DNA from: a virus
DNA length: 28,872 nucleotides
Virus record (IMG/VR): IMGVR_UViG_3300030202_000426
Span: 1 to 28,872 of that record
Reading direction: 5' to 3' (one strand)
Positions 4,770 through 27,096 of the stretch are shown here, piece after piece (position 1 is the stretch's first letter; each line of letters opens with the position of its first letter). The notes below the pieces were generated by a model. The model searched no databases, was not told the DNA's origin, and saw nothing but the letters and a program-made list of their open reading frames with translations. Both the position numbers and the translations under genes were made by a program.

Positions 4770-4792
4770 AACCTTAAAAGGAGAGTAATAAA

Positions 4793-5905
4793 ATGGCTGA
4801 TGGAAATGTAACAACAACTACAGCTGCTGAATAGAATTGGCTGCTATAAATCGCTGAATTAAGCTGGAACCCTAAGTCGAGAGATATGGGAATCAGAACC
4901 GAAGGATAATTAAAGATTATTCAGGGGCAGAGCATAGAAGTTGAAAAGATATAATACTTCCAAGAGACAGCGACACATAAAGGTTAGCCCCCTTATAGTG
5001 AAAAGATATGCCGAACTATATTGAAAGATATAGAAGTCAATGATAAAAAACTTTGACGATAACAACTGAATTTTATTCCTGAAATGTGGAGAGATGCGAT
5101 TCTTGACTATGCTGAAAGACAATTTCAGTTAAGAAATCAAGTTCTTGACTTTTCAAGTATGTTAGCAGATGGTGGGGACATTCTAAATATACCTAAGGTT
5201 ACTGAAGAAACTGCTGCAGCTAAATCTGCAGGATCGGCAGTAACATATACTAACAACACAGATGGTGTAATTCAACTTGCAGTTGATCAACATCATTACG
5301 AAGCTAAAAGAATCGAGGACATCGTAAGAGTTCAAGAATCTGCAGACTTATTTGGTGCTTATGCAAAATCAATGGGTTATGCTTTAGCTAAAAAAGTAGA
5401 AAATTACTTAGCAGTAGATATTTTACAATCTGCTACTGGTAACGATACTGCTTTAAGTTCTGACAATGTATTTACAACTGCATTAATCAGAACTGGTTTA
5501 CAAAAACTACTTGATGCAGGACACGACTATACTGATGGAGAACACTTTTTCTATTGTTCGCCAGCAACTTATATGTCATTACTATCTCTTGGTGACTTCT
5601 CAGAAGCACAAAAAAGAGGAGATGCTGAAAATCCTAATGTTTCAGGTCGTATTATCAATGCTTATGGATTAGAAGTATATCCAAGCACAGATTGGGACGA
5701 CGATGGTGGATCAGGCGATGAAACTGCAACGATCTTTAACAGAAATAGTGTTTACTATGCACAACAGATAGCTCCTCGTGTTCAAAGTTCTTATGATCTT
5801 GACCATTTGAGTACCTCAGTTGTAGCAGATGTACTATTCGGTGCAGCATTATCTCATGCTGCTAACTCAACATCATTAGGTGTTGTGAACTTCACAAATC
5901 CATAA
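4793..5905 (+). CDS. Major capsid protein, split by a group I intron (join 4793-4828, 5069-5905)
   Basis: This is the HK97-fold coat protein. Read straight through, the gene hits TAG after 13 codons. Removing 4829-5068 joins exon 1 (12 codons, MADGNVTTTTAA) in frame to exon 2 (NFIPEMWRDAIL...), giving a 290-residue protein. The junction reads TTTTAANFIPEMW, which matches the N-terminal signature I know from many marine phage capsids (TAANFIPE.W). Exon 1 starts after AAAGGAG with an ATG at 4793. An ATG at 5084 inside exon 2 lacks a ribosome binding site and would remove the conserved N-terminus, so I reject it as the start. The rest has the expected pattern: an N-arm, 'VRVQESADLFGAYAKSMG' region helices, and 'FYCSPATYMSLLSLGDF'. 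A hairpin follows the stop. Confidence 0.9.
4829..5068 (+). ncRNA. Group I self-splicing intron (IA-like, no ORF)
   Basis: A 240-nt intervening RNA in the capsid gene. Pairings found by eye: P1, exon 4822-4828 (AGCUGCU) with guide 4839-4845 (GGCUGCU), one U/U mismatch and a terminal U.G at the 5' splice site; P10, 4833-4838 (AGAAUU) with exon 2 5069-5074 (AAUUUU), six pairs; P3, 4851-4856 (UCGCUG) with 4968-4973 (CAGCGA), six Watson-Crick pairs; P4, 4864-4866 with 4894-4896; P5, 4870-4872 with 4888-4890; a P6 extension, 4905-4910 with 4916-4921; P7, 4932-4936 (GCAUA) with 5007-5011 (UAUGC); P7.1, 4937-4941 with 4956-4960; P8 around 4974-5000; P9, 5016-5021 with 5028-5033; P9.1, 5036-5040 with 5053-5057. 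The intron ends in G5068. R-like (GGGCAGAGCAUAG) and S-like (AAAAGAUAUGCC) core segments are present. P7.1 points to subgroup IA. There is no homing endonuclease. Confidence 0.9.
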
Positions 5906-21540: not shown

Positions 21541-22014
21541 TTAGTATTGTTTTCTAACTTTTTCAGCTAAGACTGATGAGTTGATGTCTGCATCGTTGCA
21601 GTAAGAATCATACTCACCAACTCTTTCATTCATTTCTTCAGCATTGTATGCAAAGCAAGTTGTGTAAATATTTTTTCTTGTTTGAAACTCACCACCAAAG
21701 TAATAAGTATCTTCTTGGCTAACACCTAAACCTTTATCACCTGCTAAAGCATAACCTTCGATTGCATGAGCAACTGCAATAAGACTCATGTAATCTGCTT
21801 GAACTAAATCTTCATCAAATCTACCTGAAACATTTTGAAAACCATGTCTTCTTTCTAAATCAAATTTAGATTGTTCTTCATTATTAGCAACAAACATTCT
21901 GTAAGCATATTTAATTTTTTCTCCATTAGCATCTTGTCCTGTGTAGTTAAATTTTGCTAAACCTAACCCAAGTTCGTTTGCTCTTTTTTGTACTTTTTTA
22001 AATTGTAATCTCAT
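21541..22014 (-). CDS. Minus-strand hypothetical protein
   Basis: A 157-residue protein on the minus strand. The start is the ATG at 22014-22012 behind AAAGGAGAAAAAA; longer in-frame starts lack such a site. It begins MRLQFKKVQKRANELGLGLA. The middle is rich in acidic and aromatic residues (RFDEDLVQADYMSLIAVAHA), with cysteines near the C-terminus (TTCFAYN, SYCNDAD). I recognise no family. It lies opposite to all other genes, downstream of a second minus gene and before the shared terminator. This placement is typical of early host-control or accessory genes. Confidence 0.65.
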   Translation of the reverse strand: MRLQFKKVQKRANELGLGLAKFNYTGQDANGEKIKYAYRMFVANNEEQSKFDLERRHGFQNVSGRFDEDLVQADYMSLIAVAHAIEGYALAGDKGLGVSQEDTYYFGGEFQTRKNIYTTCFAYNAEEMNERVGEYDSYCNDADINSSVLAEKVRKQY

Positions 22015-22033
22015 TTTTTTCTCCTTTTGTTTA

Positions 22034-22051
22034 GGGGGCATTTCTGCCCCC
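22034..22051. terminator. GC-rich hairpin between the minus-strand genes
   Basis: Seven perfect pairs (GGGGGCA with TGCCCCC, loop TTTC) lie between the two minus-strand genes. In the plus direction a T-rich run (TTGTTTTTA) follows, so it could stop rightward read-through. In the minus direction it precedes the ribosome binding site of the 21541 gene by a few bases, and could protect or limit that message. Confidence 0.6.
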
Positions 22052-22057
22052 TTGTTT

Positions 22058-22240
22058 TTAGTATAAATAACCAACTTCCTTTGCAGTTTCTAAAGTCCCA
22101 GCACAAAATCTATCACCAGTTTCAAGATTTTCTACCCAGTAATCTTTAGTACCTTTTGTTTTAGTAATAACAATCATATTATTGTCTTGTCTTTCCCAAA
22201 CTAAATAACCTTGTTGTGTTTCTACTTTGTTAAATCTCAT
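22058..22240 (-). CDS. Short minus-strand hypothetical protein
   Basis: A 60-residue protein beginning MRFNKVETQQGYLVWERQDN. I place the start at 22240 because the ATG has the same leader as the other minus gene (TAAACAAAAGGAGAAAAAA). A longer frame to 22354 has no such site and runs into the repeat region. The product is a compact beta-like protein with a 'NNMIVITKTKGTKDYWVENLETG' pattern. No family was recognised. It is probably transcribed from the divergent region at once after infection. Confidence 0.65.
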   Translation of the reverse strand: MRFNKVETQQGYLVWERQDNNMIVITKTKGTKDYWVENLETGDRFCAGTLETAKEVGYLY

Positions 22241-22264
22241 TTTTTTCTCCTTTTGTTTAACTAA

Positions 22265-22302
22265 CATATACAATATTAATATATAGAAACGAATAGTGCA
22301 AG
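22265..22302 (-). promoter_or_regulatory. Possible promoter for the minus-strand genes
   Basis: Read on the minus strand, TTGCAC is followed after 17 bases by TAATAT, then about 35 bases to the ATG of the 60-residue gene. Both hexamers are imperfect (3 and 4 of 6 to the sigma-70 consensus), so only the spacing and position support it. Confidence 0.35.
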
Positions 22303-22321
22303 TCTTTTCGAAATTATTTTT

Positions 22322-22409
22322 AAGGGTTATATAAAGGGTTGTAGGATCATACACAAATTGTGGATAAGTGTGTGGATATCAAGTCTTATCAAAGGGTTAT
22401 ACTAAGGGT
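22322..22409 (+). repeat. Direct repeat pairs AAGGGTTATA..AAGGGT
   Basis: AAGGGT occurs at 22322, 22334, 22392 and 22404. The two pairs each have a 12-base internal pitch and lie 70 bases apart, with TATA-type sequence between the members (TATATA, TATACT). Each pair is preceded by CAAGTCTT (22299-22306, 22380-22387). They could be binding sites for a phage regulator or initiator covering -10 elements. Confidence 0.6.
22359..22379 (-). promoter_or_regulatory. Two DnaA boxes
   Basis: TGTGGATAA at 22359-22367 is the exact complement of the consensus DnaA box TTATCCACA. TGTGGATAT at 22371-22379 differs from it by one base. The two are in the same orientation, 12 bases apart. A single nine-base match could be chance in 29 kb, but two in tandem in the only large non-coding gap are unlikely to be. 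Confidence 0.65.
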
Positions 22410-22559
22410 GCAAGAAAAAGACAAAGACAAAGATAAATATAAAGTTAAAGCATAAGGAGAATTATAAGAAAAAAAAGAATTAGCAAAATAATCATTGACT
22501 TAAATAAAAAAAAAGACTTAGGTTGTTTTTAAATATGTTAATGACAAAGGAGAAAAATC

Positions 22560-22646
22560 ATGATCATAGAAATTATAGCTTACACTATCTACATGATAGT
22601 TATGTGGGAGTTTTTAAAAAAGGTAGTTAAAGAATGGTACTTGTAA
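22560..22646 (+). CDS. 28-residue membrane micro-protein
   Basis: The product MIIEIIAYTIYMIVMWEFLK... has one hydrophobic helix and a basic/aromatic end (KKVVKEWYL). It has a perfect AAAGGAG site and is the first rightward gene after the divergent region. Its stop lies 13 bases inside the next gene. Such peptides in early phage regions may act on the host membrane. No homologue is known to me. Confidence 0.5.
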   Translation: MIIEIIAYTIYMIVMWEFLKKVVKEWYL

Positions 22647-22858
22647 AACTTACCTTAGAAGAATTAGAATTGTTGATTGAAGTAATGGAACGAAATAGAA
22701 TCGACCATGATAATGAAAATACACTTAGACACGATTTACGATCAATTCGTGAAAAAGTGGAAAATGAGAAAAATCGTTTAGCAGAAGAAATGGCAAAAAG
22801 ACCTAAAGAAGAAATGAGGTTGATTCCAAATCCAACATCTGCCGAACACATTGAATAG
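22634..22858 (+). CDS. Small early helical protein
   Basis: A 74-residue, highly charged helical protein (LTLEELELLIEVMERNRIDH ... REKVENEKNRLAEEMAKRPK). The ATG overlaps the preceding micro-gene. It lies just before SSB. It probably forms a coiled coil. I recognise no family, and it may be a regulatory or accessory factor of the replication block. Confidence 0.6.
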   Translation: MVLVKLTLEELELLIEVMERNRIDHDNENTLRHDLRSIREKVENEKNRLAEEMAKRPKEEMRLIPNPTSAEHIE

Positions 22859-22866
22859 GAGAAAAT

Positions 22867-23532
22867 ATGGCTTTTGTAAATTTAAAAGACCTGAAATCAA
22901 ACATAGGTGGACAACTTAGATTGACTTTAAATTCAAGTGGTGTCTACGAAGAAAAAGAATGGCAAGGTAAGAAGTTCAATACCTTTAAGTATGAAGTATT
23001 GGAAGATGGTAAAGCATTAACTTTAGATGCTACTGATTCACTTAAAAGAAAGTTGGACTTAATATCAACTGGAGATGACTTCTTATTAAGTTGGGAACAA
23101 TTTACTACTAATGAAGGACAACTTCGTAATTACTGGAAAGTTGAAAAGGTAAGCAAAGAATCTGCTAATCCTCAATTTGAAAATGTAAAGAAAAGTGTAA
23201 ATGAGTTTGAAGTCCAATTACAAAAAGACAAAGCACTAAAACAACAAGTTAATACTACCAATAGCACTTTTACTAATGGGGCAAGATTCGGAATGATTTT
23301 CAATAACTGCATAAAGCTTTACATTGAAAATGGAATGAAATGGACTACTGATGAATTTGTAAACAACTTTAATCGAGTAGAAGGTTGGGTGGAAGCTTGT
23401 GAAAATCCATCAACGATCCCTGCTGCAAGTAAACCAAATGAACCAGTAGCAGTAGATAAAAATTACAAGCAAAGTGTAATTGACAACACTACAGAACCAG
23501 TACAAATTGATGAAGACGAATTACCATTTTAA
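22867..23532 (+). CDS. ssb: Single-stranded DNA-binding protein
   Basis: A 221-residue protein behind AGGAG. The N-terminal 100 residues are beta-rich as in an OB fold (GGQLRLTLNSSGVYEEKEW; NTFKYEVLEDGKALTLDAT). A helical and flexible part follows. The last residues IDEDELPF closely match the acidic SSB tail (DDDIPF), which binds host replication and repair proteins. The protein would coat single strands during phage replication and recombination. It is longer than typical SSB because of the extra helical part after residue 120. The assignment rests on the tail, pattern and position at the start of the early block. Confidence 0.7.
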   Translation: MAFVNLKDLKSNIGGQLRLTLNSSGVYEEKEWQGKKFNTFKYEVLEDGKALTLDATDSLKRKLDLISTGDDFLLSWEQFTTNEGQLRNYWKVEKVSKESANPQFENVKKSVNEFEVQLQKDKALKQQVNTTNSTFTNGARFGMIFNNCIKLYIENGMKWTTDEFVNNFNRVEGWVEACENPSTIPAASKPNEPVAVDKNYKQSVIDNTTEPVQIDEDELPF

Positions 23533-23641: not shown

Positions 23642-23737
23642 ATGGGGCAGTTACTTCTTATACTCTTTTGTTTAATTAACATATCACAATCGAATAGTAG
23701 CTGTCCCCTTCTCCTGAAAGGATATTATGATAAATAA
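23642..23737 (+). CDS. Possible 31-residue exported or membrane peptide
   Basis: This frame follows AAAGGAAAAA and encodes MGQLLLILFCLINISQSNSS..., ending KGYYDK, with a short hydrophobic segment and two cysteines. It overlaps the methyltransferase start. The same DNA holds a long inverted repeat and a copy of the minus-strand leader, so it may be a regulatory site rather than a gene. Confidence 0.3.
   Translation: MGQLLLILFCLINISQSNSSCPLLLKGYYDK
23644..23708 (-). repeat. Inverted repeat enclosing a copy of the minus-strand leader
   Basis: 23644-23655 pairs with 23696-23708 (11 Watson-Crick pairs, one G.U, one bulge). On the minus strand the stem is followed by ATTTTTTCC, as in a terminator. 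The loop, read on the minus strand, matches the leader of the 60-residue minus gene over about 28 bases with one substitution and two one-base gaps, plus ACTATTCG. Confidence 0.5.
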
Positions 23738-26111: not shown

Positions 26112-26740
26112 AAATATTAAATCTTTATGCAGGAATAGGTGGTAATAGAAAGCTATGGGGTAATGAGCATGAAATTACTGCTGTTGAATATGATGAAAAT
26201 ATTGCTGCAATATATAAAGATTTTTTTCCTAATGATGAAGTATTAGTAGAAGATGCACATGATTACCTATTAAATCATTTTAAAGAATATGATTTTATTT
26301 GGAGTAGTCCACCATGTCCTACACACAGTAGAATGAATTTCTTACTTAATCAAAAAGAAACTTTTAAATTAAAATATCCTGATATGCAACTATATGAGGA
26401 GATTATTTTATTAGATTGTTTTTTTAAAGGTAAATATGTTGTAGAAAATGTAATGAGTTATTATAAACCATTAATAGAACCACAGATTACAGGGGGACAT
26501 TACTTTTGGTGTAATTTTGAAATACCACAATTAGACACAAGAAAAAAAGTAAGAAATGACAAAGGATATACCCTGAAAAAGAAAATGGAAGATAAAGGCT
26601 TAATTATTGAAAACTTTTATAATTACAAAGGGGACAAAAGAACTTTGTTAAATAATGCTATTGAGGGTGAATTAGGATTAGCAATATTAGAATCGTCGAA
26701 ACACGAAAAACAATTAAATATATTTAAGGAGAAAAAATGA
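26108..26740 (+). CDS. C5-cytosine DNA methyltransferase (short)
   Basis: A 210-residue enzyme with motif I at residues 5-12 (NLYAGIGG), the acidic EYDE at 27-30, catalytic SPPCP with C70, ENV at 113-115, and later GGHYFWCNF. This is the order of m5C methyltransferases. The motif IV form (SSPPCPTHS instead of GPPCQ.FS) and the small size without a clear long target-recognition domain mark it as a reduced phage type. It may modify specific cytosines in phage DNA. It is translationally overlapped with both neighbours. Confidence 0.8.
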   Translation: MKILNLYAGIGGNRKLWGNEHEITAVEYDENIAAIYKDFFPNDEVLVEDAHDYLLNHFKEYDFIWSSPPCPTHSRMNFLLNQKETFKLKYPDMQLYEEIILLDCFFKGKYVVENVMSYYKPLIEPQITGGHYFWCNFEIPQLDTRKKVRNDKGYTLKKKMEDKGLIIENFYNYKGDKRTLLNNAIEGELGLAILESSKHEKQLNIFKEKK

Positions 26741-27096
26741 GAAAAAGATTTTTAGATGCAGATATAAACAATAAGAGTTGGTTTAGAAAACTAACTGCAC
26801 AAGAGAAAGTATTATGGTATTACATAAGCACCAGTTGTACTCATGATGGCTTTTGGGAAAAAGACGATGAAGCCATTGGATTTTATTGTAATGGTTATGA
26901 TGGACAAGTACCTGAAATTATTAAAGAAAAAATGGGTATGATCCAAGTAGATGATTCACAATACCTATTAAAAGAGTGGATTAAGTTTCAATACAAAGAA
27001 CTAAAAGAAAATGTATCTACTCACAAACGAATCATAGAACGATTACGAAGAAAAGGATTAGATCAACACTTTCCTGAATTACAAGAGGACTTTTAA
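26737..27096 (+). CDS. Replication initiator-like winged-helix protein
   Basis: A 119-residue protein. The N-terminus 'RKRFLDADINNKSWFRKLTAQEKVLWYYISTSCTHDGFWEKD' pattern is the hallmark of the N-terminal winged-helix domain of phage replication proteins ('RF.D..I....WF..L....K..W.Y....CD..G.W'). In larger relatives this is followed by a DNA- or helicase-binding domain. Here the protein stops after the first domain and a basic helix (THKRIIERLRRKG). It may bind the phage origin, possibly the region at 22241-22559, and recruit host helicase. Confidence 0.65.
   Translation: MRKRFLDADINNKSWFRKLTAQEKVLWYYISTSCTHDGFWEKDDEAIGFYCNGYDGQVPEIIKEKMGMIQVDDSQYLLKEWIKFQYKELKENVSTHKRIIERLRRKGLDQHFPELQEDF

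Follow-up and report, generated by a model that had tools for sequence, protein, structure and literature searches.

Paired DnaA boxes, short iterons and an A-rich tract form a candidate replication origin in an uncultured phage group

Phage lambda has its replication origin, with O-protein iterons and an AT-rich tract, midway along gene O (PMC7466680), and the origins of iteron plasmids such as RK2 oriV and F combine DnaA boxes, iterons and an AT-rich unwinding region (PMC10797057). Here we analyse an intergenic region of the virus record IMGVR_UViG_3300030202_000426 from IMG/VR, a linear sequence of 28,872 bases (the window) whose + strand carries most of the genes. This region, located between a leftward gene block (21541-22240) and a rightward early operon, had been proposed as a DnaA-dependent origin between divergent gene blocks (the original prediction), and is probably a phage replication origin of the iteron type, similar to an iteron-plasmid origin or lambda ori and containing DnaA boxes. 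In RK2, the boxes are followed by the iterons and then by the AT-rich region, and the order in the window resembles that of RK2; the iterons of the window differ from those of the plasmids in being short, with a core of about 6-8 bases and a pitch of 11-12 bases. The likeness to lambda ori would lie in a small number of iterons that adjoin an A-rich tract and are read by a phage initiator. The candidate initiator for the iterons is a 119-amino-acid (aa) winged-helix protein encoded at 26737-27096 (+ strand), whose predicted N-terminal winged helix is a feature also of phage replisome organizers and DnaD-like initiators (as named in PHROG and BFVD). A candidate origin and initiator are now proposed for an uncultured phage group in which no replication genes had been recognised.

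Two DnaA boxes are located on the - strand, namely box 1 (TTATCCACA, 22359-22367), which is an exact match, and box 2 (ATATCCACA, 22371-22379), which contains one mismatch and is perfect in most relatives. As originally predicted, the two boxes have the same orientation and a start-to-start distance of 12 bases. TTATNCACA occurs once in the window whereas 2.4 occurrences are expected by chance, and a single box is therefore meaningless. Of 1500 dinucleotide shuffles, 9 contained a same-strand pair (one perfect box and one with at most one mismatch) at a distance of 9-30 bases, and 1 contained such a pair at 9-12 bases. Because the probability of such a pair is low yet not negligible, the case is made by conservation in relatives. 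Searches with the SSB-like protein of the early operon and with the winged-helix protein yielded 30 and 36 loci, respectively, with contigs overlapping between the two sets, and the origin was readable in 29 loci (including the window). In all 29, the same early operon is preceded by at least one perfect box, and 27 have a pair of boxes with at most one mismatch each; the pitch is 12, 21 or 22 bases, apart from one inverted pair at 16. Relatives with the same gene order but without the boxes and repeats were looked for, and none was found among these loci. It is true that close pairs appear in some shuffles and that the box frequency in the window is not above expectation, but chance boxes in AT-rich intergenic DNA are a very improbable explanation, given that the boxes persist between loci at which the adjoining genes have diverged in up to about half of their residues. 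Such conservation of DnaA boxes at a candidate origin is a feature of DnaA-dependent origins, and the boxes are candidate sites for binding by host DnaA. In a survey of viral contigs, at least 97 perfect same-strand DnaA box pairs were found (L080-L159), with listed pitches peaking at 12-13 and 20-22 bases; among the pairs listed, none adjoins a comparable A-rich tract by the pattern used.

The boxes are flanked on both sides by AAGGGT pairs at a 12-base pitch, AAGGGTTATATAAAGGGT at 22322-22339 and AAGGGTTATACTAAGGGT at 22392-22409, and copies of CAAGTCTT start at 22299 and 22380. Both of the flanking module copies described in the original prediction are thus present, but they are not equivalent. 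Many relatives (e.g. L004, L007, L017, L024, L025, L027, L029, L058 and L064) lack the left module (22299-22343, +), which comprises CAAGTCTT and two AAGGGT sites, or have a reduced form of it; the module appears to be accessory, perhaps as part of the leftward promoter region. The core of the locus is therefore considered to consist of the boxes, the right-hand iterons and the tract. The right copy of CAAGTCTT (22380-22387, +) is replaced in relatives of iteron class B (see below) and varied in others, and the two AAGGGT sites at 22392-22409 (+), the core iterons, are candidate binding sites of the winged-helix protein. Right-hand iteron-type sites were found in 29/29 loci, mostly at a pitch of 11-12 bases.

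The A-rich tract (about 22412-22480, +) follows the boxes with the predicted 6-base periodicity, begins with AAAGAC/AAAGAT hexamers and contains 44 A in 68 bases. It is a candidate DNA unwinding element; in duplex stability, the 100-base stretch at 22436 ranks second lowest in the window. A tract at the same position was recognised by eye in all 29 loci, two of which were missed by a pattern scan. Repeated sites at a regular pitch beside an AT-rich region, a feature of iteron-type origins, are thus found here. Downstream of the tract, TTGACT (22495-22500, +) can be read as the -35-like element of an early rightward promoter; this assignment is weak, as a promoter scan did not list the element, which reads TTGACA in many relatives.

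The iterons fall into two classes, which were assigned by eye. In class A, found in most loci, the core is AAGGGTTA or a close variant, and in class B (L018, L021, L022, L023, L030 and L064) it is AGGGGGTAC in either orientation. Protein trees were constructed for 25 contigs (23 for the left-neighbour gene). On the tree of the winged-helix protein, iteron class requires one change (support 100/98), whereas four and five changes are required on the trees of the SSB-like protein and the left neighbour, respectively, neither being better than many shuffles. Among the genes compared between ten relatives and the window, the winged-helix gene alone splits by iteron class. For example, L020 (class A; its contig starts inside the origin, so only the iterons and tract are visible) shares 99 and 98% identity in the SSB-like protein with L018 and L021 (class B), but only 64% in the winged-helix protein, and L064 combines a B-like winged-helix protein with AGGGGGTAC iterons. 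The conserved anatomy of the locus, and the fact that iteron class and winged-helix allele switch together, are directly visible in the sequences. The simplest reading of the switching is that the winged-helix protein recognises the iterons, such that these natural allele swaps, which weigh most heavily in favour of an iteron-type origin, point to a protein-site pair. Among close relatives of class B, the iteron block has opposite orientations in L018 and L030 and in L021-L023, with the DnaA boxes and tract keeping their place. No winged-helix gene was found on the new contigs obtained when further class B contigs were sought for the allele test.

The AF2 model of the winged-helix protein (mean pLDDT 89.9) has the element order of a winged helix. 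Its fold matches include phage replisome organizers and replication proteins, which is suggestive only. The window protein differs from replisome organizers and DnaD-like proteins in having no C-terminal region, and no sequence-family match was obtained for it at E 0.001 in the family libraries. Profile matches were weak (0.24 to phrog_3926 for the window protein and 0.0034 for the best of the group), and the sequences of solved structures gave nothing useful. Several points weigh against an origin served by this protein. The class B proteins comprise four near-copies and that of L064, and the allele test thus rests on few independent events, with classes set by eye; the fold matches are weak, those to Rep initiators (Z 4.3-4.8) being no better than those to CRP-type regulators (up to 5.3); and DnaA boxes also regulate transcription, the candidate origin itself adjoining a promoter. 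An alternative is that the region controls transcription of the divergent operons on either side, with the winged-helix protein as an early regulator, AAGGGT as its operators and DnaA as a transcription factor. The location between divergent blocks next to the -35-like element and the CRP-type fold matches would fit, as would the joint switching, which is also expected of a repressor and its operators. We nevertheless regard transcription control as unlikely, because a repressor needs neither paired DnaA boxes nor a conserved A-rich tract of low stability, the winged-helix protein also matches replisome organizers and, as described next, distant relatives hold the sites and tract within a gene rather than at a promoter.

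Two distant relatives, L074 and L075, encode full-length relatives of the winged-helix protein with a KDKDKDK linker; these are 261 and 259 aa long, with identities of 45 and 44% in the part they have in common with it. Within these genes, the sites TAACCCTA, AAGAGTTA and TAACCCTT are arranged at pitches of 12 and 11 bases directly before (AAAGAT)n, where about 0.1 such iteron-like sites are expected per 60 bases. L074 and L075 therefore resemble lambda ori in carrying iterons and an AT-rich tract inside the initiator gene. The window departs from this plan in several respects: the candidate origin lies between genes, at a distance of about 4 kb from the gene of the candidate initiator, the 119-aa protein ends before the linker and has no C-terminal part, and DnaA boxes are present while no P-like loader was recognised. 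In L076 (8001-8792), L077 and L079, which also encode full-length initiators, other short repeats (GAGGCT; ATGGGG) are located just before the KDKDKD-coding tract, and short repeats unlike those of L074 and L075 precede a similar tract throughout L076-L079; those of L076, L077 and L079 are possibly in-gene origins of other specificity. For L078, a distant relative, the C-terminal part gave matches to families of replication initiation and of DnaD-like loaders. The C-terminal part of the full-length initiators was not found elsewhere in the window group.

From the in-gene iterons and tract of L074 and L075, it seems that in the window group the origin has moved out of the initiator gene, whose product has lost its C-terminal part; the origin probably once lay within a longer initiator gene. 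One frame of the A-rich tract of the window reads QEKDKDKDKYKVKA, which is at most suggestive of a relic of coding sequence. We tentatively propose, with somewhat more doubt than conviction, that an initiator of the lambda-O type, whose gene contained the origin, was split into two units, an iteron reader of a single domain and an origin standing on its own, that host DnaA took over the helicase recruitment of the lost C-terminal region, and that reader and matching iterons are transferred together from phage to phage despite the intervening genes. The replacement of the C-terminal part by DnaA is something we infer; if the split is real, it shows how a phage can give up the domain with which it recruits the helicase and rely on host DnaA instead.

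An origin for which the phage initiator suffices, the DnaA boxes being accessory or serving transcription alone, would agree with the initiator genes of L074 and L075, in which the pattern used revealed no box pair. The boxes are, however, retained in every relative although the adjoining left module comes and goes, and this variant is accordingly given little weight. In the DnaA-assisted iteron origin that we favour, the winged-helix protein would bind the AAGGGT iterons beside the A-rich tract, host DnaA would bind the paired boxes, the tract would melt, and DnaA, alone or together with the phage protein, would recruit the host helicase and replisome. Recruitment of the host helicase is proposed because no phage helicase, loader or polymerase was recognised. 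The simple scheme of borrowing host DnaA put forward originally is thus supported as far as an origin with DnaA boxes is concerned, but requires modification, since the repeats behave as iterons for a phage protein and only their right copy is constant.

The early operon downstream of the origin is constant among relatives, and the flanking genes vary. Its first gene is a 28-aa open reading frame (ORF; 22560-22646, +) encoding MIIEIIAYTIYMIVMWEFLKKVVKEWYL with one hydrophobic stretch, conserved in most relatives, and is followed by a conserved 74-aa early gene with no assigned function (22634-22858, +). The SSB-like protein (22867-23532, +) has a predicted OB-like fold in its N-terminal part (overall pLDDT 68.3) and a C-terminal DEDELPF, which resembles SSB tips. 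The earlier expectation of an SSB and an initiator-like winged-helix protein was supported, and no polymerase or helicase was recognised among the window proteins scanned (a subset of the ORFs).

Among cultured phages, neither the DNA-level search nor the search with the SSB-like protein gave a match; the sole match of the winged-helix protein was Pseudanabaena phage Pan5 (25.6%). No hit was confirmed among genome contigs searched with the winged-helix profile, and the Rfam search gave no match. GC skew is positive nearly throughout the window and dips only at the leftward genes. Because it tracks gene direction, it cannot decide the position of the origin and was dropped as a marker. In several relatives, the terminase genes follow about 0.4 to 1.5 kb after the genes found at the right end of the window, so that little seems to be missing from the window. 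The origin region had been called the only long non-coding gap, which is inexact: positions 4770-5083, preceding the ORF at 5084, form a second long gap of 314 bases without a listed + strand ORF of at least 50 aa. Finally, a stretch at 23665-23690 is similar to the leader at 22250-22274 that belongs to the leftward gene (92% identity over 26 bases), and the likeness extends to GAATAGTAG.
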